Position numbers and translations under genes: made by a program | Assembly (NCBI RefSeq): GCF_000982415.1 | Contig: NZ_LANI01000027.1 | Span: forward strand, 1 to 56,749 | Length of the DNA: 56,749 nucleotides | Reading direction: 5' to 3' | Source: Kiloniella litopenaei | Lineage (GTDB): Bacteria > Pseudomonadota > Alphaproteobacteria > Kiloniellales > Kiloniellaceae | Notes under the pieces: generated by a model | The model's input: the letters and a program-made list of their open reading frames with translations, nothing else | Told to the model about the DNA's origin: nothing | The model's database searches: none | Shown here: piece by piece, positions 13,538 to 56,648 of the stretch | How positions within the stretch are numbered: position 1 is the stretch's first letter | Layout: every line of letters begins with the position of its first letter

Positions 13538-15682
13538 ATGTCTGATTTTCCCAAAAAAACAATCGCGGACTGGGAAGGGCTTGTTGAAAAAGAACTTCGT
13601 GGGAAGAAAAGCGATAGCCTGAATTGGGAAACTCCCGAAGGTATTGTGGTAAAGCCGATCTATACAGAAGAAGATCTTGAAGATCTGGATACCATGGGAA
13701 CCTTGCCGGGCTTTGCACCGTTTTTGCGTGGTCCTCGGGGCAGTATGTATGCTGCGCGCCCCTGGACCGTACGCCAATACGCAGGTTTTTCAACAGCTGA
13801 AGAATCCAATGCTTTCTATCGCCGGAACCTTGCCGCAGGGCAAAAGGGGCTTTCAGTCGCTTTCGATCTTGCAACGCACAGAGGATATGATTCTGATCAC
13901 CCGCGTGTGGTTGGGGATGTGGGTAAAGCGGGGGTTGCGATCGACTCTGTCGAGGATATGAAAGTTCTTTTTGATGGCATTCCGCTGGATCAAATGTCTG
14001 TTTCCATGACAATGAACGGTGCTGTGTTGCCTGTGCTTGCTGGCTATATTGTTGCCGCTGAAGAACAGGGGGTGAAACCAGAACAACTGTCTGGAACAAT
14101 CCAGAATGATGTGCTCAAGGAGTTCATGGTGCGGAATACCTATATTTTCCCGCCAACCCCTTCGATGCGGATTGTGTCTGATATTATCGGTTATACAGCC
14201 AAAAATATGCCGCGCTTTAACTCTATTTCGATTTCGGGTTACCATATGCAGGAAGCTGGCTCTACCTGTGTGCAAGAGCTTGCATTTACCATTGCTGACG
14301 GCCTTGAATATGTACGCACCGCGATTTCTAAAGGTCTGGACGTAGATGCGTTTGCGCCACGGCTTAGTTTCTTCTTCGCAATCGGCATGAACTTTTTTAT
14401 GGAAGCATCAAAGCTTCGGGCTGCACGTTTTCTGTGGTCTCATTATATGAAAAAGATGTTTGACCCGAAAGATACGAAGTCCTTGATGCTTCGGACCCAT
14501 TGCCAGACATCTGGTGTTTCTTTGACCGAGCAGGACCCCTATAACAATGTCATTCGGACAACTGTAGAGGCAATGGCTGCAGCTTTGGGAGGGACCCAGT
14601 CTCTGCATACCAATGCCTTGGATGAGGCTGTGGCTTTGCCAACGGATTTTTCCGCCCGGATAGCACGGAATACACAGCTGATCTTGCAAGAAGAAACAGG
14701 TATTACAAAGGTCGTTGATCCGCTCGCCGGAAGTTATTATGTGGAAAGTCTGACCGCGAGCTTGATTGAAGAAGCGCGGAAAATAATCGATGAAGTCGAA
14801 GAAATGGGCGGCATGACCAAGGCTGTTGAATCCGGCATGCCAAAACTTAGAATTGAAGAGTCTGCGGCGAAAAAGCAGGCACGTATTGATCGCGGTGAAG
14901 AAACTGTGGTTGGCGTTAATAAATATCGTCTCGAAAAAGAAGACGACATCGAGATCCTTGATATTGATAATACTGTCGTTAGAGAACAGCAGATTGCGCG
15001 ATTGAATGAAATTCGCAAGACCCGTGATAGCAAAGCCTGTGACGAAGCTCTTGCTGCTTTAACAAAGGCGGCAGAAGACGGTTCAGGTAATTTGCTTGAT
15101 CTTGCTGTTCAGGCGACGCGGTTACGCGCTACGGTTGGTGAAATTTCGGATGCGCTGGAAAAGGTGTATGGTCGTCACCGTGCTGTAAACAGGAGTATTT
15201 CCGGCGTGTATGGATCTGCATATGATGGCGATGATGATTTCGCTCGCATTCAGGGAGAAGTCGAAGCTTTTGCTGAACAAGAAGGTCGCCGTCCAAGAAT
15301 GCTTGTGGTGAAGTTAGGGCAGGACGGTCATGACCGCGGCGCGAAAGTCATTGCAACGGCCTTTGCTGACATCGGTTTTGATGTTGATGTCGGCCCGCTG
15401 TTCCAAACGCCGGAAGAGGGGGCGCAGCAGGCGATTGAAAATGATGTTCATGTTGTTGGCATTTCAACACAAGCCGCCGGTCACAAGACGCTGGTTCCAC
15501 AGCTGATTGCAGAGCTTAAGCGTCAGAAGGCTGATGATATTCTTGTCATTTGCGGGGGGGTGATACCTGCGCAGGATTATGATGCTCTTAAAAAAGCAGG
15601 CGTTTCTGCTGTGTACGGGCCAGGGAGTAATATTCCCTTGGCGGCACAGGAAATAATCGGCCTGTTGAACAAAAGAAGCTGA
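13538..15682 (+). CDS. mutA: Methylmalonyl-CoA mutase (single-chain)
   Basis: Adenosylcobalamin enzyme interconverting (R)-methylmalonyl-CoA and succinyl-CoA, the last step of propionyl-CoA use. The 714 residues equal the catalytic chain length. The N-terminal barrel is present ([77 protein letters not shown]). The C-terminal B12 domain has the base-off motif [12 protein letters not shown] with lower-ligand His598. A canonical AGGAGG (13524-13529) precedes the ATG. No mutB-like small subunit is nearby, so a homodimeric enzyme is likely. Its chaperone gene meaB lies 4.4 kb downstream on the same strand. Confidence 0.96.
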
Positions 15683-20060: not shown

Positions 20061-21050
20061 ATGACGAAAGATAAGGGTAAGATCGATAAGCTGGTTGAGG
20101 GTATCGCTGATGGACAACGGCGTGCTTTGGCACAGGCAATCACCCTTATTGAATCAACACGGTCAGATCATCGGGAAGACGCTGATCGTTTGCTGGAACA
20201 AATCCTGCCGATGAGCGGAAAATCTATCCGGATTGGTATTTCCGGTGTTCCGGGGGTTGGTAAATCGACCTTTATTGAATCTTTTGGCATGCATCTGATC
20301 GGTAAAGGTTTTCGGGTTGCTGTCTTGGCTATTGATCCGTCGTCACAGCGGACTGGTGGTTCGATCCTTGGTGATAAGACCCGGATGGAGATCCTGTCCA
20401 GGCAAGAGGCCGCTTTTATACGCCCTTCTCCGGCCGGAACAACGCTTGGCGGGGTTGCCCGGCGAACCCGGGAAGCGATGCTGCTATGCGAAGCATCGGG
20501 TTTTGATGTCATTCTGATTGAGACCGTGGGGGTTGGCCAGTCGGAAACGGCTGTTGCAGAGATGGTCGATATGTTCTTGCTCTTATTACTGCCAAGCGGC
20601 GGTGACGAGCTGCAAGGGATTAAAAAAGGGATCATGGAACTGGCGGATATGGTCGTGGTGAATAAGGCCGATGGCGACCTTGCGCCAGCAGCAAATCGTG
20701 CTGCTGCTGAATATCATGCGGCTTTGGGGTTGATGCGACCTTCTAGCCCCAATTGGAAGCCCAGGGTTAAAAAGTGCTCTGCCCTGAACAATGAAGGCAT
20801 TGATGAGATCTGGTCTGCAATAGAAGAATTCAGAACCAAGCTTTGGGAAAGTAACGAAATACCAGACAAGCGGGTGAAACAGGCCGTCTCATGGATGTGG
20901 AGTGAGATTAAAGAATCTCTTCTGCTTGCTTTTAAAGATAAGCCAGAGATTGATAAGGCGCTTGAAAAGGTGGAATCCGAAGTGATTTCTGGTAAGATTG
21001 CACCCGCGACGGCGGCGAGAAAGCTGCTGAACATCTTTCTCAAGCCCTGA
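20061..21050 (+). CDS. meaB: Methylmalonyl-CoA mutase chaperone GTPase
   Basis: 329-residue G3E-family GTPase that loads and protects adenosylcobalamin on methylmalonyl-CoA mutase. The P-loop is GISGVPGVGKST (59-70). Switch regions AIDPSSQRTGGSILGDKTRM and ILIETVGVGQSE and the base-recognition motif VVNKADGD follow. The C-terminal dimerisation arm is present. It lies 13 bp after the Atm1-type gene, in the same direction as the mutase but separated from it by two unrelated genes. Confidence 0.95.
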   Translation: MTKDKGKIDKLVEGIADGQRRALAQAITLIESTRSDHREDADRLLEQILPMSGKSIRIGISGVPGVGKSTFIESFGMHLIGKGFRVAVLAIDPSSQRTGGSILGDKTRMEILSRQEAAFIRPSPAGTTLGGVARRTREAMLLCEASGFDVILIETVGVGQSETAVAEMVDMFLLLLLPSGGDELQGIKKGIMELADMVVVNKADGDLAPAANRAAAEYHAALGLMRPSSPNWKPRVKKCSALNNEGIDEIWSAIEEFRTKLWESNEIPDKRVKQAVSWMWSEIKESLLLAFKDKPEIDKALEKVESEVISGKIAPATAARKLLNIFLKP

Positions 21051-48136: not shown

Positions 48137-49132
48137 ATGAGCTTTACGATTCCAGAAGAAACCACTTCACGTCTCAATCGCAGTGAACTGGCTGTACCGG
48201 GAAGTAATCCCGTTTTGTTTGAAAAAGCGGCAGCATCCAAAGCCGATGTGATTTTTTTGGATTTGGAAGATGCGGTTGCGCCGGATGATAAAGAGCAGGC
48301 GCGCAAAAATGTTATTGAGGCAATAAACGATATCGACTGGGGGAATAAAACACTGTCGGTTCGTGTGAATGGTCTGGATACGCCATATATGTATCGGGAT
48401 GTGATTGATGTGCTTGAGCAGGCTGGTGACAGGCTTGATCTGTTTATGATCCCAAAGGTAGGGACAGCGGCGGATATCTATGCTTTGGATATGCTTTGCA
48501 CCCAGGTTGAAACCGCGAAAGGTCGCAAGAAAGCCGTCGGTTTTGAAATGATCATCGAAACGGCTCTTGGTATGCAAAATATCAATGAAATCGCAGCTGC
48601 TTCGAAGCGAAATGAAAGTCTGCATTTTGGTGTTGCAGACTATGCGGCATCAACAAAAGCCAGAACGACAGGTATCGGCGGACCAAACCCGATGTATGGT
48701 GTTTTAACGGATGTTGATGGTGATTCACCTAGAGATTTCCACTGGGGTGATATGTGGCACTATGCGATTGCGCGTATGGTCGTTGCTGCACGTGCGAACG
48801 GTCTTCGAGCTATAGATGGTCCTTTTGGTGATTTTTCCGATCCAGAAGGGTATCGCGCCCAGGCTAACAGAGCGACAATTCTGGGCTGTGAAGGAAAGTG
48901 GGCCATCCACCCAAATCAGATTGGCATTGCGAATGAAGTAAACAGCCCGTCAGAAGCCGAAGTGAACAAAGCCAATCGCATTCTTGAAGCCATGGAACAG
49001 GCCCAGCGTGAAGGTAAAGGTGCCGTTTCGTTGGATGGGCGGCTTATTGATATCGCCTCTATTCGACAGGCGAGCGTAATGGTCGAAAAAGCCAAAGAGA
49101 TTGCCTTGGCGGATGCCGCCTCTGAGACTTGA
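48137..49132 (+). CDS. HpcH/HpaI-family CoA lyase, malyl-CoA lyase type
   Basis: 331 residues. It should cleave (S)-malyl-CoA to acetyl-CoA and glyoxylate, or beta-methylmalyl-CoA to propanoyl-CoA and glyoxylate. Motifs: RSELAVPGSNPVLFEKAAAS, DVIFLDLEDAVAPDDK (metal Glu/Asp), RVNGLDTPY, GFEMIIETALGMQNI, and GCEGKWAIHPNQI typical of Mcl1. The propanoyl-CoA branch would connect to the mutase elsewhere in the window. It is 248 bp after xerD, with its own terminator. Confidence 0.87.
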   Translation: MSFTIPEETTSRLNRSELAVPGSNPVLFEKAAASKADVIFLDLEDAVAPDDKEQARKNVIEAINDIDWGNKTLSVRVNGLDTPYMYRDVIDVLEQAGDRLDLFMIPKVGTAADIYALDMLCTQVETAKGRKKAVGFEMIIETALGMQNINEIAAASKRNESLHFGVADYAASTKARTTGIGGPNPMYGVLTDVDGDSPRDFHWGDMWHYAIARMVVAARANGLRAIDGPFGDFSDPEGYRAQANRATILGCEGKWAIHPNQIGIANEVNSPSEAEVNKANRILEAMEQAQREGKGAVSLDGRLIDIASIRQASVMVEKAKEIALADAASET

Positions 49133-50369: not shown

Positions 50370-50417
50370 TTTTAAGCTGGGGCAATATTAACATTTTAAG
50401 CTGGGGCAATATCAACA
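50370..50417. repeat. 24-bp tandem duplication covering the 3' end of the molybdoenzyme gene
   Basis: Two adjacent 24-bp copies (50370-50393 and 50394-50417) differ at one base (T versus C at position 20). The second copy encodes the C-terminus VDIAPA plus stop on -; the first repeats the same words just past the stop, ending NIAPA-stop in the same frame. Confidence 0.9.
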
Positions 50418-52456
50418 AATGTATCATTGTAACAGGCCCCGGACATGATATCTGTTCTGGTTTCTGAATTGATCAGAGCATTCACCGTTTGACCGGAAGC
50501 ACTCGATTTTAGCCATGTACCCTTTGGTGAATAAAGTACGCCGGGTTTTACCTTGTTGGTCACTTTAGCCAGTAGAATAACTTCCCCCAAGGTATTCCAT
50601 ATTTTGACCTTTGAGTTGTCCGTAATACCCTTTGCCTGAGCATCTTGTGGATGAATTTCAATTTGCTCTATGGATATTGAATCTTCGTGTCCGCCAAAGG
50701 TTGCGTTTGTCCGTTTGCTGGATGATGGGGAGATCAAGGCAAAGGGAAGATCCTGTGGCACCTCTTCATAGCGCGGAAGACCATATCCGAACTGCTGTTC
50801 CAGGTGTTCCGAGTAAAGCTCTATCTTGCCCGTTTTTGTGGCCGGAAAGACCGTTTTACACATGATAAGTTCCTGATCGTTTTTTGCCAGCATAGGCAAA
50901 GACCGATCCAGAGGAACTTCACTGGGGCGAACTCCTTTCATCTGGGGCGCTGTCGGATCGTAAGCCTCATCCATCAGCTGGTAATCGTCCGCTTTAAAGA
51001 GATCATCGCTAAATCCAAATCGTGCAGCGAGACGGCGGAAAATTTCTGTATTAGGGAGAGAATGCCCCACGGTAGGGATAACAGGTTCAGCTCTTTGCAG
51101 ATGGGCCTGACCATAGGCGGCATAGATATCCGGAAATTCAAAATGGCTTGATGCGGGTAGAACAACATCAGCATAAGCCATGCTGTCGTTCATCTCTACA
51201 TCACAACCGACGATAAAGATATCTTCCCGACTAAGAGCCCGACGCATCCTGTTTTGGTCAGGGTGGGTACAAACCGGATTGTGGTTATAGATAAAAACCG
51301 CTTTGATCGGTGGTGCCAGACGATCGTCGAGTATGTGTTTCGCAACATCGACGATGTTGAGCATTCGGGTTCCTTCGGGTACTAGATCCGGGCGTCTTAG
51401 TTTGCTGGTTGTGGCTGGGAATGCGAGACCTTGTTTGGCAATAACACCAGCCCCGGCCCTTCCCATGTTACCCGTTATGACCTGAAGCGCCATTGCGGCA
51501 CGAATAGACGATCCGCCGGAATGGCCACGTTCTGCGCCGTTACCAACCGACATGGAAACATTCTTCGCCGCTGTATAGATGTGCAGGAATTCTTGAATCT
51601 GTTCCATGGGGATTTCGCAAATCCTGGCGGCATCGTCCAGAGAATATTCTTTTGCTGCCTCTAGATATGCTTCAATTCCATGAACCCAATGGTTAATAAA
51701 ATCAGTGTCGAGTGCAGAACGCTTTTCCAGTTCAGCGGCCAGTGCCAAGAAGAGAACGATATCAGTGCCGGGTTTGATCTGAATATAGAGGTCAGCCTGC
51801 TCGGCAATTTTCACTTTCTTGGGGTCAATGACGATCAGCTTAGCCCCATTCTTTTTGGCCGCTTTAATGATCCGTGCTAGATGCAAGTTTGAAACAGTGA
51901 CGTTATTGCTGGCGACAACAATCAGATCTGATTTAACCGCCTGTTCCGGTTCCATGCCGGGGGCATTCCCAAACAGGCTGGTGTAGGCAGTTCCTCGCAC
52001 AGCACCACAAAGGGGGCCTCTGTCGAGTTGGCTTGCGCCTAGTTTATGGAAAAAGCGAAAATCCATAGAACCGCCAGCAAGCTGTCCGTGAGGGCCTGCG
52101 TAGTTTAGGGGGAGCACGGATTCAGGACCATACTTTTCAATAGCAGCATTTAAGCCGTTATATATACGATCAAGGGCTTCATCCCAGCTGATGGGTGTAT
52201 ATTCCAATGATCCTTTTGGACCCGTCCGCAAAAGTGGCTGCGTTAAACGGCGTTCGCCATGAATGAAGTCTGGATAGTAGTCCGAGACCTTTTTGCATAT
52301 AGCACCAGCAGTGTAGGGATTGGCATCAGAACCACGGACCTGAATGATGTGCTTTCCATCCGTTAGGACGGACAAACTACAGGTGTCTGGGCAATCAAGA
52401 GGACAAACACTGGGTTTGTTTTGTAGGGGTGTTGTGGACGCTGTATCCAAGGGCAT
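50396..52456 (-). CDS. Cytoplasmic molybdopterin oxidoreductase
   Basis: 686 residues of the DMSO reductase/formate dehydrogenase superfamily. An N-terminal [4Fe-4S] site C18-x3-C22-x3-C26-x27-C54 is followed by PLLRTGPKGSLEYTPISWDEALDRI, the cofactor domains (RGPLCGAVRGTAY, where the Cys may ligate Mo; VIDPKKVKIAEQADLYIQIKPGTD; GVEMNDS-like VEMNDSMAYADVVLPASSHFE) and the C-terminal dinucleotide-binding barrel (RTNATFGG, VKPGVLYSPKGTW). It has no Tat signal, so it acts in the cytoplasm. The substrate is unknown. It lies 149 bp downstream of, and in the same direction as, the LysR gene. Confidence 0.92.
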   Translation of the reverse strand: MPLDTASTTPLQNKPSVCPLDCPDTCSLSVLTDGKHIIQVRGSDANPYTAGAICKKVSDYYPDFIHGERRLTQPLLRTGPKGSLEYTPISWDEALDRIYNGLNAAIEKYGPESVLPLNYAGPHGQLAGGSMDFRFFHKLGASQLDRGPLCGAVRGTAYTSLFGNAPGMEPEQAVKSDLIVVASNNVTVSNLHLARIIKAAKKNGAKLIVIDPKKVKIAEQADLYIQIKPGTDIVLFLALAAELEKRSALDTDFINHWVHGIEAYLEAAKEYSLDDAARICEIPMEQIQEFLHIYTAAKNVSMSVGNGAERGHSGGSSIRAAMALQVITGNMGRAGAGVIAKQGLAFPATTSKLRRPDLVPEGTRMLNIVDVAKHILDDRLAPPIKAVFIYNHNPVCTHPDQNRMRRALSREDIFIVGCDVEMNDSMAYADVVLPASSHFEFPDIYAAYGQAHLQRAEPVIPTVGHSLPNTEIFRRLAARFGFSDDLFKADDYQLMDEAYDPTAPQMKGVRPSEVPLDRSLPMLAKNDQELIMCKTVFPATKTGKIELYSEHLEQQFGYGLPRYEEVPQDLPFALISPSSSKRTNATFGGHEDSISIEQIEIHPQDAQAKGITDNSKVKIWNTLGEVILLAKVTNKVKPGVLYSPKGTWLKSSASGQTVNALINSETRTDIMSGACYNDTFVDIAPA

Positions 52457-52605: not shown

Positions 52606-53493
52606 TTAACTATTCAATACTTCTTTAAGTGTTGTCGCCAGAACACTTGTCAGGTCCGGGCGTTGTCCACGGTGTTTTTCAACAAGTGAAACTGTTCGTG
52701 TCGTGCTCGGTTTGCCAAAGGGACGAACCAATAGATTGGTTCTATCTTCCAGACTTGTTTCAGGGACAATTGCAGCGCCCAAGCCTTTGGCCACCATGCG
52801 CTGGATTGCTTCGAGAGAATCAAGTTCCATGACTTCTCTCAGGTTTGCACCTCTGTTTTTGAGGCTCTGTTCGATAACGCGTCCAACCCCGGTTAAATGG
52901 TTGAAGCGAACAAAAGGCAGTTGGCTCAAGAGAGCGATGTCGCCGTCTCTGCTTTTGGCGATTCTTTCATTCTCGGTATTTTTCTGGGCAATAACAACAA
53001 GGCGCTCTTCGCGAAGCTTTGTTGATTTCAGGGCGTCGTCCAGACGCTGGGCCTCGGTGATGATAATGCAGTCCAGCTTCCCCTGTATCAGTTCACGGGT
53101 TAGCTCCGTACTCAACCCACTTTCGAGCCGAACATGCAAACGTGGATGTTCTTGTCCCAGTCGGGCAAGAACCTCTGGTAAAAAGGATGATGTTGCACTG
53201 GGAATAGCCCCCAGTCGCAAGAGGCCGGATAGGTCCCCGGCTTTGGATCCGGCTTCTGGCAAGGAATCATACAGGTTGATAATGTCCTGCGCCTTGCACA
53301 GTAGCCGAATGCCTGTTGGGTTGAGGTCGGGTGGGCGTCGGGTACGATCAAACAACTCAGTTTGTAGTTCATCTTCCAAAGATTTGATCTGCATGCTGAT
53401 TGCGGAATGCGTTAAGCCCAGCTTTTCTGCGGCTGCCTGAAAACTACCCGTTTCAGCAATTTCAATTAACGTGCGAAGCTGGCGAATACCCAT
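52606..53493 (-). CDS. LysR-family transcriptional regulator
   Basis: 295 residues. N-terminal winged HTH (RQLRTLIEIAETGSFQAAAEKLGLTHSAISMQIKSLEDELQTELFDRTRR) and a periplasmic-binding-like effector domain (about 90-295; LLRLGAIPSATSSFLPEVL, KGLGAAIVPETSL). It is divergent from the acyl-CoA dehydrogenase-fold gene, with an AT-rich inverted repeat in the gap, so it most likely controls that gene and the ThDP gene. It may also affect the molybdoenzyme gene downstream. Confidence 0.94.
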   Translation of the reverse strand: MGIRQLRTLIEIAETGSFQAAAEKLGLTHSAISMQIKSLEDELQTELFDRTRRPPDLNPTGIRLLCKAQDIINLYDSLPEAGSKAGDLSGLLRLGAIPSATSSFLPEVLARLGQEHPRLHVRLESGLSTELTRELIQGKLDCIIITEAQRLDDALKSTKLREERLVVIAQKNTENERIAKSRDGDIALLSQLPFVRFNHLTGVGRVIEQSLKNRGANLREVMELDSLEAIQRMVAKGLGAAIVPETSLEDRTNLLVRPFGKPSTTRTVSLVEKHRGQRPDLTSVLATTLKEVLNS

Positions 53494-53504
53494 AAATTAA
53501 CATC

Positions 53505-53531
53505 AAAATAATTGAAGTAAGAAGTTATTTT
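53505..53531. promoter_or_regulatory. AT-rich inverted repeat in the LysR divergent gap
   Basis: AAAATAA (53505-53511) and TTATTTT (53525-53531) are separated by 13 bp; ATCAAA and TTTGAT flank them further out. The size and place fit a LysR-type binding site. Confidence 0.5.
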
Positions 53532-53635
53532 AATTCGTTTGATTTGAAGAAAGCAAGCGCGAGATAATAGAGCCAGTGAATACAAGGGTGAACATAAGCG
53601 CCCTGTTGCCCGGAGAAACCGTATGGAGAGTCCAA

Positions 53636-54931
53636 ATGCTTGCAGATCTTGATCGACTAGATGCCTCGGAAGCTTCTGATAAGGCAGAAAAATCTCGTTT
53701 ATTTGCGCTTGAAGATATTCGCCAACGCGCCCGCAGTTTGGCGCTGGATGTTTTTGCCCCTCGGGCCGCATCGATTGATTCTGCTGAGATGTATCCTTGG
53801 GAAAACTGCTTTGCTCTGAGGGATGCCGGCTTTATGGGGATGACAATTCCGAAGGCTTACGGGGGTGCCGGGGCAGGATATCAGGAAGCTGTCGTGTTGG
53901 TTGAGGAAGTTGCCAAGGCCTGTGGTGTGACCGGGCGTATTGCTGTCGAGGCCAATATGGGGGCCATCGGCGCCATCATGGCCTATGGCACTGAAAAGCA
54001 GAAGAATCTTGCTGCTGAGCTGGTTCTGGATGGTGACAAGCCAGCTATATGTATTACGGAGCCTGAGAGTGGTTCCGCGGCCACAGAAATGAAGACCCGT
54101 GCCGATAAAGTTGGGAATGGCTATGTCCTGAACGGTACAAAACACTGGATCACCGGTGGCGGCGTTTCACGATTACACCTTATTTTTGCACGGGTTTATG
54201 AAAATGATGAGCCGCAGGGAATTGCCGGGTTCCTTGTTGTTCGCGGCGAGCCGGGCGCAGAAGGGCTTTCCATTGGACGGCGTGAACCAACCATGGGCCT
54301 TAGGGGAATCCCGGAAACCGAAGTCCATCTGAAAAATTTACACGTACCGTCCGATATGATGCTGCAACCTCCATCAGGCCTTAGAAAGGGCTTTGGTGAT
54401 TTGATGACAGCCTATAATGGACAGCGTGTGGGGGCAGCAGCCGTTGCGCTTGGCATTGCAGTCGGGGCCTATGAGCAGGCGGAAAGCTTTATTCAAAAGC
54501 GAGAGCAGTTTGGTCGCCCGATTTGTGAGTTTCAGGGGCTTCAGTGGATGTTGGCTGATATGTCCGTACAAATCAGTGCGGCAAGGGCTTTGATAAATGA
54601 GGCTGTGTCAGGAGAAGGCTTCCCGGATAAAACAAAGGCTGCCCAAGCCAAGCTCTTTACATCAGAAATGGCCGTTACAGTCACAAATAACGCATTACAG
54701 ATGCATGGTGCAGCGGGGTATTCCAGAAATAACCCGGTCGAGCGCATGGTGCGGGATGCACGTATGTTCACCATTGGTGGTGGTACGGCACAGGTTCTCA
54801 GAAATGTGATCGCGTCTGATTTGCTAAATCGCAAATTTCCGCAGACAAGGGATGGTTATCTGACTGGTTCGTCTGATAAATCTTCTATGGAAGACCTGCG
54901 ATCTGTTGTTGAGCGTAATCCTGAGTGTTAA
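53636..54931 (+). CDS. Acyl-CoA dehydrogenase-fold protein, probable 3-sulfinopropanoyl-CoA desulfinase
   Basis: 431 residues from the ATG at 53636, chosen over the GTG at 53576 because GGAGAG lies 5 nt before it. The FAD-binding acyl-CoA dehydrogenase fold is complete (ICITEPESGSAATEM, WITGGGVSRLHLIFARV, REQFGRPICEFQGLQWMLADM). Dehydrogenases need a Glu/Asp base at one of two sites: the isovaleryl-type site is Gln263 (AYNGQRVG) and the EGT site is Gly382 (FTIGGGT). The 3-sulfinopropanoyl-CoA desulfinase of Advenella has Gln and Gly at these places plus an essential Arg84; here Arg101 (VTGRIAVE) matches with a constant offset. The reaction would release sulfite and propanoyl-CoA. A generic dehydrogenase is much less likely. 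Confidence 0.8.
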   Translation: MLADLDRLDASEASDKAEKSRLFALEDIRQRARSLALDVFAPRAASIDSAEMYPWENCFALRDAGFMGMTIPKAYGGAGAGYQEAVVLVEEVAKACGVTGRIAVEANMGAIGAIMAYGTEKQKNLAAELVLDGDKPAICITEPESGSAATEMKTRADKVGNGYVLNGTKHWITGGGVSRLHLIFARVYENDEPQGIAGFLVVRGEPGAEGLSIGRREPTMGLRGIPETEVHLKNLHVPSDMMLQPPSGLRKGFGDLMTAYNGQRVGAAAVALGIAVGAYEQAESFIQKREQFGRPICEFQGLQWMLADMSVQISAARALINEAVSGEGFPDKTKAAQAKLFTSEMAVTVTNNALQMHGAAGYSRNNPVERMVRDARMFTIGGGTAQVLRNVIASDLLNRKFPQTRDGYLTGSSDKSSMEDLRSVVERNPEC

Positions 54932-55034
54932 AGCACTAAGTGATAAGACCTTACTAAACAACCGATTTTAGATGGCGCGCTCTTAAGGGCGCGTAGCCAG
55001 TATTGTGTGATTGATTAATTTGAGAGAAGCCGAG

Positions 55035-56648
55035 ATGAGCTTGACGACAGCCGATATCCTTGCCCAACGCCTTTTTGATGCGGGATGCCGCCATGCCTTT
55101 GGTATTCCAGGGGGGGAAGTTCTGAGTGTGATGCACGCACTGGATCGGGCAGGGCTAGAAATTGTGCTGACCAAGCATGAAAACGGTGCGGGCTTTATGG
55201 CCGAAGGGACTTATCATCGCACGGGTGCACCGGGTGTTCTCTTCGCAACGCTTGGCCCGGGCATGGCGAATGCTTTTAACGTTATCGCCAATGCACATCA
55301 GGATCGTGTCCCGTTGGTGTTTCTGACTGGACGGGTCGATGATTATGACATGGCAAGCTATACGCATCAGGTTTTTGATCATTGCAAGGCGCTGGAACCC
55401 GTCGTGAAGGGCAGCTTCACCCTCGTGGATGGTGCCGTTGATCGCATCGTTGACAGGGCTTTGTCTCTGGCGCAATCAGGTCGCCCCGGGCCTGTACACA
55501 TTGATGTTCCGATTTCCCTCGCGGCAAAGGTGCAGGAAGCTGCGCCCAAACAATGGCAACCAACCTATTTGCCCTCGGCACCTGTGGACAATGCCAACTT
55601 TTCTGAAGTGAGAGATCGCTTGTCCCGTTCAGAAAGACCTCTGGCCATTCTGGGGTTGGAAATTCTCAGCGAGGGTTGTGAAGTTGAGGTAAGGAACTTC
55701 CTTCTGAAACATGGAATTCCATCCGTTGCTACCTATAAAGCGAAAGGGGTAATCCCCGATGATCATCCGCTTTCCCTCGGCGGTGCAGGACTTTCCCCGA
55801 AAGCCGATAAAACAGTTCTTCCCTTGATTGAGAAAAGTGACTGTCTGTTGTTGATTGGCTATGATCCAATTGAAATGCGCCATGGTTGGCAGGATGTATG
55901 GGAACCTGAGACGCAGTTTGTTGCAGAATTTACCCTTGAGCCGAATTTGCACGGCATGCATCGGGCCAGCTGTACCTTTGTTGGTTCTTTAGCGCCTGCA
56001 TTAGCCGTTTTGGATCAAGGGTTGGATCTTGGCTCTGTTTGGGAGAATGGCGATTTTACCAAAGCCAAGTCAGAGCTATCTGCTGCATTCCCTCGGGATG
56101 AAGATTGGGGGCCATCCGCGATTGTTGATGAAGTGCGCAAGGCCTTGCCTGACCATGGTCTTGCCTCTGTTGATTCCGGGGCGCACAGAATCTTGCAAAG
56201 CCAACAGTGGGTCTGTCGGGAACCTCACACCCTTATTCAATCCAGTGGGTTGTGCACGATGGGCTGTGCCCTGCCATTGGCTATGGGGGCCAAAGTTGCC
56301 TCGCCTGACCTGCCCGTAGTTGCCTTTACCGGAGACGCGGGACTAGAGATGATCTTGGGCGAATTATCGACACTCAGAGATTTGAATCTACCTGTTGTTG
56401 TTGTCGTTTTTGTTGATGCATCGCTTGCCTTGATTGAATTGAAACAGCGTGGAAGTGGCAGGGAGAATCTTGCGGTTGATTTTGGGGGGACAGATTTTGC
56501 TGCGCTGGCTGACGCTATGGGAGGGATTGGTATCAACGCCCGAAGCCGTAAAGAGCTGCAAACAGCATTGAGTTCTGCATTTGAAGGCGACAAGTTTACC
56601 TTGATCGCAGCTCATATTGAACGTGAATCCTATGACGGGAAGTTTTAA
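55035..56648 (+). CDS. ThDP-dependent acetolactate synthase-like enzyme
   Basis: 537 residues from the ATG at 55035 (GAGAG upstream; an earlier TTG frame is not used). It has the three domains of the acetolactate synthase/pyruvate decarboxylase family. The N-terminal Pyr domain holds the activating Glu49 in TKHENGAGFMAEG and GIPGGEVLSV, and the C-terminal PP domain the metal motif GDAG (Asp434) with Asp461 (FVDASL) 27 residues on, the usual spacing; GDG/NN is here GDA/VD. It lacks long FAD-loop features of true AHAS, so the reaction is unknown. It lies 103 bp after the desulfinase-like gene, probably co-transcribed, with a hairpin in between (54979-54993). Confidence 0.85.
   Translation: MSLTTADILAQRLFDAGCRHAFGIPGGEVLSVMHALDRAGLEIVLTKHENGAGFMAEGTYHRTGAPGVLFATLGPGMANAFNVIANAHQDRVPLVFLTGRVDDYDMASYTHQVFDHCKALEPVVKGSFTLVDGAVDRIVDRALSLAQSGRPGPVHIDVPISLAAKVQEAAPKQWQPTYLPSAPVDNANFSEVRDRLSRSERPLAILGLEILSEGCEVEVRNFLLKHGIPSVATYKAKGVIPDDHPLSLGGAGLSPKADKTVLPLIEKSDCLLLIGYDPIEMRHGWQDVWEPETQFVAEFTLEPNLHGMHRASCTFVGSLAPALAVLDQGLDLGSVWENGDFTKAKSELSAAFPRDEDWGPSAIVDEVRKALPDHGLASVDSGAHRILQSQQWVCREPHTLIQSSGLCTMGCALPLAMGAKVASPDLPVVAFTGDAGLEMILGELSTLRDLNLPVVVVVFVDASLALIELKQRGSGRENLAVDFGGTDFAALADAMGGIGINARSRKELQTALSSAFEGDKFTLIAAHIERESYDGKF

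Follow-up and report, generated by a model that had tools for sequence, protein, structure and literature searches.

At the right end of a contig of the Kiloniella litopenaei draft genome (NZ_LANI01000027.1, whose full 56,749 bases form the window analysed here; genome 4.3 Mb, rated 100% complete), a LysR gene on the minus strand is divergent from two plus-strand genes, acd and thdp, which encode a protein of the acyl-CoA dehydrogenase fold (Acd) and a thiamine diphosphate (ThDP)-dependent enzyme. By its sequence, Acd is another member of the known 3-sulfinopropanoyl-CoA desulfinase family; what appears to be new is its partnership with this ThDP enzyme across many bacteria, a pairing that is more than chance. 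We regard it as a serious possibility, a little short of evenly balanced, that the pair is the visible part of a route from a sulfinated amino acid to propanoyl-CoA and sulfite, for which we infer the substrates, the order of steps and the regulation. The features concerned are as follows.

52606..53493, minus strand: LysR-family regulator (Pfam PF00126, PF03466), divergent from acd-thdp
53497..53548, no strand: 24-nt imperfect inverted repeat between lysR and acd (75% match, 4-nt spacer), candidate LysR operator
53636..54931, plus strand: predicted 3-sulfinopropanoyl-CoA desulfinase (Acd), acyl-CoA dehydrogenase fold (NF042439, 5af7/5ahs match, R101/Q263/G382)
54932..55034, plus strand: acd-thdp spacer with a G+C-rich stem-loop and no T run behind it (from sequence and fold)
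55011..56648, plus strand: putative ThDP-dependent 2-oxo acid decarboxylase-like enzyme, the partner of Acd (Pfam PF02776, PF00205, PF02775)

The desulfinase and its ThDP partner

Acd scored 623.7 bits with the NCBIfam model NF042439 for 3-sulfinopropanoyl-CoA desulfinase, above the cut-off of 600, and the runner-up model, acryloyl-CoA reductase, gave 300 bits with a cut-off of 640. The top solved chain is the Advenella enzyme (5af7/5ahs) at 506 bits, followed by a chain at 238. In the alignment to 5af7, Arg84, Gln246 and Gly366 of Advenella correspond to R101, Q263 and G382 of the window protein, just as an earlier sequence-only reading of this DNA had proposed, and with Q263 and G382 at these places neither Asp nor Glu occupies the catalytic position. 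The desulfinase assignment of that reading was also borne out, as membership of a known family and not as a new enzyme. We take positions of the R101, Q263 and G382 type to be important for desulfination. An alignment of 96 rows, comprising the window protein and 95 matches above 300 bits with the desulfinase profile, has the R-Q-G combination in 93 of the 94 rows in which all three positions are filled (87 distinct sequences). The lone other row, with S-E-A, is an isovaleryl-type protein in locus L075, the remaining two rows come from a split gene in L118, one for each half, and a paralogue in the window's own genome (L003) carries Glu at the place of Q263; the genome's other paralogue (L002) was excluded from this comparison. 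In one published account, this enzyme is without the usual Glu and makes its attack on the sulfino group (PMC8360864). The products expected of Acd are propanoyl-CoA and sulfite. In two loci, a Parasedimentitalea plasmid (L199, 6970-7995) and the deltaproteobacterial bin of L118, the desulfinase occurs as two short open reading frames (ORFs) beside an intact ThDP gene.

The LysR, acd and ThDP genes are present as the earlier reading described them, and the genome survey that it had asked for showed the acd-ThDP pair to be conserved. In 98 related genomes, ThDP orthologues (at least 438 bits) were well separated from paralogues (at most 270 bits). Both genes occur in 33 of these genomes, the ThDP gene only in 5 (two of them, G006 and G012, cut by contig ends), the desulfinase only in 15 and neither in 45 (Fisher p 1.1e-9; kinship is ignored in this and all following p values), and the two genes are adjacent in 28 of the 33. 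Excluding the genus Kiloniella leaves 26 genomes with both, 4 with ThDP only, 15 with desulfinase only and 44 with neither (p 2.9e-8). Among 191 other genomes across the class, the ThDP gene was found in 13, the desulfinase in 26 and both in 6 (p 0.003); beside the ThDP gene of these 13 lies a CoA-transferase in 7, a desulfinase in 4 and either in 9. Desulfinase sequence adjoins the ThDP gene in 27 of the 30 loci L004-L033 (partial in L005 and L013); the exceptions are L022, L033 and L029, the last on a contig that starts within the ThDP gene. The order lysR-acd-thdp is kept in five other Kiloniella stretches, and the window ThDP protein shares 91, 85 and 83% identity with those of three named Kiloniella genomes.

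The ThDP protein contains all three Pfam domains of such enzymes (PF02776, PF00205, PF02775) and the catalytic residues E57, D442 and D469. The earlier reading had called it acetolactate-synthase-like. It is an intact ThDP enzyme; NCBIfam gave 54 matches, and for the 25 of these that were listed the protein passes no cut-off, the best model, the acetolactate-type PRK08322, giving 326 bits against 509. The model for sulfoacetaldehyde acetyltransferase (Xsc) is not among these 25. The nearest solved chains are acetolactate synthases, the best being 4rjj at 194 bits.

A guide to the pocket comes from a cyanobacterial 2-oxoglutarate decarboxylase (MaKGD), for which docking on a model together with mutants indicated contacts at E50, K386, M410, D435, D462, L467 and K471, including a salt bridge from K471 and a hydrogen bond from K386 to 2-oxoglutarate (PMC10418658). 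When these are mapped by the residue numbers of that paper rather than by an alignment with MaKGD, a constant offset of 7 puts them on E57, R393, M417, D442, D469, L474 and K478 of the window protein. Basic residues thereby stand at both substrate places, with Arg for K386 (R393) and Lys for K471 (K478), and other places differ: Q254, V382, A408, Y465 and G436 of MaKGD are L, S, C, L and A here. R393 and K478 are found in all 121 ThDP relatives compared, whereas chain 13bb and a Variovorax paralogue of 34% identity have Met and Lys at the two places. We read the pocket as suited to a 2-oxo acid whose tail is negatively charged, and consider the ThDP enzyme more likely an upstream 2-oxo acid decarboxylase than a participant in the C-S cut. 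The joint cleavage by both enzymes suggested earlier is modified accordingly in its second half: sulfite and propanoyl-CoA stay as the expected products, with the ThDP enzyme probably acting before the cut.

The wider gene module and a proposed route

The best 80 of 533 ThDP relatives obtained by scanning genome contigs, here the named loci, come from Kiloniella, Pelagibius, roseobacters, SAR116, SAR324, Deltaproteobacteria bins, Labrenzia, Achromobacter, Pandoraea, Variovorax and others. Within 4 kb of the ThDP gene, 72 of them have a desulfinase or a family III CoA-transferase, and acd is counted in 47, including the non-desulfinase of L075. Merging the sets of loci gave 121 distinct ThDP genes, whose neighbours were scored within 7.5 kb: a desulfinase is near 68, a CoA-transferase near 57, a TPR protein near 40 and an aminotransferase near 8, and desulfinase or CoA-transferase is near 101. 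None of the four neighbours was found for 14 genes, 6 of which lie within 2.5 kb of the end of their stretch; two of these 6 (L005, L013) do carry a cut desulfinase. All eight aminotransferase loci have Acd, and none of the 53 ThDP loci without Acd has the aminotransferase (Fisher p 0.009). Aminotransferase and family III CoA-transferase join in eight clusters, two of which also hold a dehydrogenase of the succinate-semialdehyde dehydrogenase (SSADH) type.

These two clusters are the fullest. On plasmid pBB1 of Cupriavidus necator N-1 (L203), the CoA-transferase, Acd, aminotransferase, ThDP enzyme, SSADH-type dehydrogenase and an M20-like hydrolase lie within 12.2 kb, in the order LysR, CoA-transferase, desulfinase (672 bits for a cut-off of 600), TctC-like protein (named by eye), ORF, two LysR, aminotransferase, ThDP, aldehyde dehydrogenase and M20-like hydrolase (named by eye). 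In Labrenzia DG1229 (L077), the order is LysR, desulfinase, ThDP, ORF, aminotransferase, CoA-transferase and aldehyde dehydrogenase, with all genes from acd to the dehydrogenase on one strand. Both dehydrogenases fit succinate-semialdehyde dehydrogenase models best: that of L077 reaches 717 bits with TIGR01780, over the cut-off of 646, and 743 with PRK11241, under 828, and that of L203 reaches 606, under the TIGR01780 cut-off. The aminotransferases are closest to the aspartate transaminase model (461 and 451 bits, below 617) and the CoA-transferases to succinate-glutarate CoA-transferase (473 and 497 bits, below 750). The CoA-transferase family is not sharply bounded, with matches in 65 of 192 genomes at E 1e-110, and therefore its co-occurrence with the ThDP gene in 10 of 13 genomes says less than adjacency does. 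Elsewhere in the window's own genome are two family III CoA-transferase homologues, 56 and 52% identical to the Labrenzia protein, and three close dehydrogenase homologues (59, 55 and 46%).

We propose a sulfinate twin of a glutamate route, for which the enzyme kinds in L203 and L077, with a desulfinase at the end, are just the set needed. The aminotransferase would convert homocysteine sulfinate, or 2-amino-4-sulfinobutanoate, which corresponds to glutamate with a sulfinate in place of a carboxylate, to 2-oxo-4-sulfinobutanoate, the twin of 2-oxoglutarate, which the ThDP enzyme would decarboxylate to 3-sulfinopropanal, the twin of succinate semialdehyde. The SSADH-type dehydrogenase would oxidise this aldehyde to 3-sulfinopropanoate (succinate twin), the family III CoA-transferase would convert the acid to 3-sulfinopropanoyl-CoA (succinyl-CoA twin), and Acd would split this thioester into sulfite, from the sulfino group, and propanoyl-CoA. 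For Kiloniella, the route would require genes for the aminotransferase, the dehydrogenase and the CoA-transferase away from acd-thdp. There is precedent in vitro for a sulfino group standing in for a carboxylate: glutamate decarboxylase of Escherichia coli accepts homocysteine sulfinate, and GABase, a mixture of γ-aminobutyrate (GABA) transaminase and succinate semialdehyde dehydrogenase, takes the decarboxylation product to 3-sulfinopropionic acid (PMC11396700). That this amounts to a complete catabolic pathway in marine and soil bacteria, with homocysteine sulfinate as the sulfur twin of glutamate and a 2-oxoglutarate-decarboxylase shunt running on the sulfinate, is a tentative proposal that we hold with some doubt.

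In the literature searched, largely at the level of listings and with few subscription papers, no paper was recognised as presenting the acd-ThDP pairing as a pathway, and neither '2-oxo-4-sulfinobutanoate' nor '3-sulfinopropanal' was found in the subset of papers checked for these terms. The earlier claim that the pairing is undescribed survives to this extent, with the qualification that a putative acetolactate synthase gene, ilvX, belongs to the thiodipropionate cluster of Variovorax paradoxus TBEA6 (PMC6370202).

Two further neighbours of the ThDP gene were seen. MsrB, a peptide-methionine (R)-S-oxide reductase, lies behind it on the same strand in nine of the 80 named loci (L061, L063, L070, L076, L079, L085, L112, L121, L128), which may be old synteny; and the betaproteobacterial clusters L120, L131, L203 and L204 have, downstream of the ThDP gene, an M20-like hydrolase (so named by eye) that may release the amino acid from an N-acyl form.

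Competing explanations

The chief rival to the sulfinate route has a dicarboxylic 2-oxo acid as the ThDP substrate. The enzyme would be an ordinary decarboxylase of 2-oxoglutarate or 2-oxoadipate working with a succinate- or glutarate-type CoA-transferase, tied to Acd by shared regulation or by the acyl-CoA pool. In roseobacters and rhizobia, loci with no Acd do combine the ThDP gene and the CoA-transferase, the CoA-transferase fits the succinate-glutarate model best, albeit under its cut-off, and the pocket residues are alike in all 121 ThDP genes. A Variovorax locus (L220, 8363-18017), itself possibly a sister pathway, likewise has a ThDP paralogue of 34% identity near dehydrogenase-like and CoA-transferase-like genes with no desulfinase. 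On the other side, the aminotransferase is confined to Acd-bearing loci, adjacency to Acd recurs in distant taxa, and most co-occurring pairs (28 of 33) are adjacent. We consider this explanation unlikely, if a substantial one. TPR protein and desulfinase are nearly exclusive as neighbours (together 5, TPR only 35, desulfinase only 63, neither 18), and the TPR-linked form of roseobacters and rhizobia comprises the ThDP gene, the CoA-transferase, the TPR protein, an OpgC-domain protein and often a PHB-depolymerase-like esterase. The conserved ThDP-TPR-OpgC set, mostly with CoA-transferase and esterase and with no desulfinase nearby, was seen in L096, L102, L124, L129, L201, L202 and others, in roseobacters and on rhizobial plasmids.

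A second alternative retains the known 3-mercaptopropionate route, in which a thiol dioxygenase, CoA activation and Acd act in turn and the ThDP enzyme is a bystander. 3-Mercaptopropionate dioxygenase, the known source of 3-sulfinopropanoate, is presumably of the CDO_I family. The window Acd fits the enzyme of that route best, and deletion of ilvX in TBEA6 left growth on thiodipropionate unchanged (data not shown in that paper; PMC6370202). However, a search confined to the CDO_I family gave no match in nine Kiloniella genomes (G000-G008; G005 77% complete), and because none was found in the genome, the known route seems to be without its first step in Kiloniella. CDO_I occurs in 7 of the 98 related genomes and in 7 of 28 genomes of the named loci, with one or two in Variovorax, Pandoraea and Achromobacter genomes, and the eight stretches (13.6-17 kb) around the matches in these latter 7 contain neither Acd nor ThDP. 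We regard this alternative as improbable. Less probable still is that the ThDP enzyme itself takes part in C-S cleavage, like sulfoacetaldehyde acetyltransferase, or is a carboligase of the acetolactate-synthase type. Acetolactate synthases are its nearest solved chains, yet the best acetolactate model among the matches listed falls below its cut-off, Lys replaces Gln and Arg replaces Ala relative to BsAlsS, and in Advenella sulfite is freed at the Acd step (PMC5373536). That Acd is no more than an acyl-CoA dehydrogenase or reductase, as the common fold and the acryloyl-CoA reductase model in second place might suggest, is very improbable, an ordinary dehydrogenase having been rejected on the R-Q-G residues, with base positions free of acid and the Arg kept, and on the desulfinase cut-off.

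Several observations weigh against the sulfinate route as we propose it. Roseobacters and rhizobia commonly have the ThDP gene with a CoA-transferase but no desulfinase; for 53 of the 121 ThDP genes, no Acd was seen within 7.5 kb in the stretch concerned, an upper bound in that L005 and L013 hold a cut and L199 a split Acd; and among 26 genomes chosen for having no Acd by the ThDP gene, 18 have none over the cut-off and 8 have it elsewhere. On the ThDP tree, which was built without two outgroup rows and has long branches, the desulfinase neighbour requires 19 changes, of which branches with good support impose at least 11, compared with 39.5 in shuffles, and therefore the link has been made or lost many times; desulfinase-bearing Labrenzia, Nitratireductor and L105 sit inside a 32-row clade of which 26 rows are TPR-linked. 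The ThDP gene is also rare in Burkholderiaceae (2 of 299) and Variovorax (1 of 81), and because of this rarity and its presence in just 17 of 72,556 plasmid records it has probably been passed around between groups. Among the 121, ThDP genes with and without a linked Acd do not differ in their substrate-side residues, giving no mark of a sulfinate specialist, K478 is shared with chain 13bb and the 34% Variovorax paralogue, and the contact map follows the residue numbers of a paper in which no mutants of K386 or K471 were seen (PMC10418658). The dehydrogenase was found in 2 of the 8 aminotransferase clusters and not in the stretches of the other six (L098, L105, L114, L120, L131, L204, with those of L105 and L114 cut off where the contig ends). 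Glutamate decarboxylase is 116 times less effective on homocysteine sulfinate than on glutamate (PMC11396700), and the source of homocysteine sulfinate was not identified. Lastly, the CDO_I matches are weak, at 24-41 bits for a cut-off of 23, and the absence in Kiloniella holds at that sensitivity.

Regulation, surroundings and known systems

The inverted repeat at 53497-53548 occupies much of the gap between lysR and acd and is a candidate LysR operator, from which LysR would probably control acd-thdp. It is mostly kept in L035, L036 and L037 and partly in L039, with the misplaced row of L038 set aside. A LysR of the same cluster lies within 2.5 kb of the ThDP gene in 18 of the 80 named loci, and one of a second cluster in 4. 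The acd reading frame is already open from GTG 53576; the ThDP ORF begins with TTG at 55011, and the ATG at 55035 looks the likelier start. A stem-loop at 54975-55000 may modulate thdp expression. Only 101 bases separate the ThDP stop from the contig end, and in the five other Kiloniella stretches secA (named from its sequence) follows on the opposite strand, in three of the five after an ORF of 252-284 amino acids, so that the transcription unit in Kiloniella is probably acd-thdp alone. The earlier reading had suggested looking for a thiol dioxygenase or CoA ligase gene just beyond 56.7 kb; neither lies on that side in these stretches, and the genome gave no CDO_I match.

Methylmalonyl-CoA mutase (13538-15679) and MeaB (20061-21047) are both in the window, as the sequence-only reading had proposed for the onward use of propanoyl-CoA, and would be able to take it; they lie about 38 and 33 kb from acd-thdp. 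Adjoining lysR is a molybdopterin oxidoreductase gene (50399-52456; formate-dehydrogenase-alpha-like, 253 of 666 bits), found at the same place in six Kiloniella stretches and possibly old synteny. A few kb from acd-thdp lies a gene at 48137-49129 that by eye resembles a CitE-like lyase and that matched no NCBIfam model at 1e-60.

The desulfinase has so far been known from the breakdown of thio acids (dithiodipropionate and thiodipropionate). If the proposed route is true, it would likely provide a natural upstream source for 3-sulfinopropanoyl-CoA desulfinase in genomes where CDO_I is not found, and would give a first candidate substrate to a ThDP family annotated just as 'thiamine pyrophosphate-binding protein'; other enzymes of the glutamate type have already been shown in vitro to perform the bioisostere chemistry that it needs (PMC11396700).

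The closest known system is that of Advenella mimigardefordensis DPN7, whose Acd (5af7, 5ahs, NF042439) has in common with the window the fold, the R-Q-G residues, the curated cut-off and a nearby LysR gene. Growth of Advenella on dithiodipropionate needs LysR and Xre regulators, and its acd has a family III CoA-transferase and mdo as neighbours, whereas the partner of the window acd is the ThDP enzyme (PMC5373536). The two systems also differ in the 3-mercaptopropionate dioxygenase, for which the Kiloniella genome gave no CDO_I match.

The TBEA6 cluster (acdA, act, mdo, ilvX) has a desulfinase, a CoA-transferase and, eleven locus tags away, a ThDP gene whose product IlvX (VPARA_05550) reaches higher levels on thiodipropionate and on 3-sulfinopropionate than it does on gluconate (PMC6370202). 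It provides an earlier example of a ThDP gene within a cluster that acts on 3-sulfinopropionate, and is likened to the window enzyme by the cluster description only, not by sequence comparison. The ilvX phenotype fits a ThDP enzyme upstream of 3-sulfinopropanoate and equally a bystander. In 81 Variovorax genomes we found one ThDP orthologue (617 bits), and two genomes with 34% paralogues (244-248 bits), around which 18-19 kb gave no Acd match.

Of the ThDP enzymes, AlsS-type acetolactate synthase (4rjj) shares with the window protein the fold and a His-Gln pair, and has Ala and Gln in BsAlsS where the window has R393 and K478. The cyanobacterial 2-oxoglutarate decarboxylase and SSADH system resembles the module in the basic residues at both substrate places, a likeness by residue numbers only, and in the SSADH-type partner of two clusters (PMC10418658); it differs in that the ThDP enzyme described here is linked to a CoA-transferase and a desulfinase.

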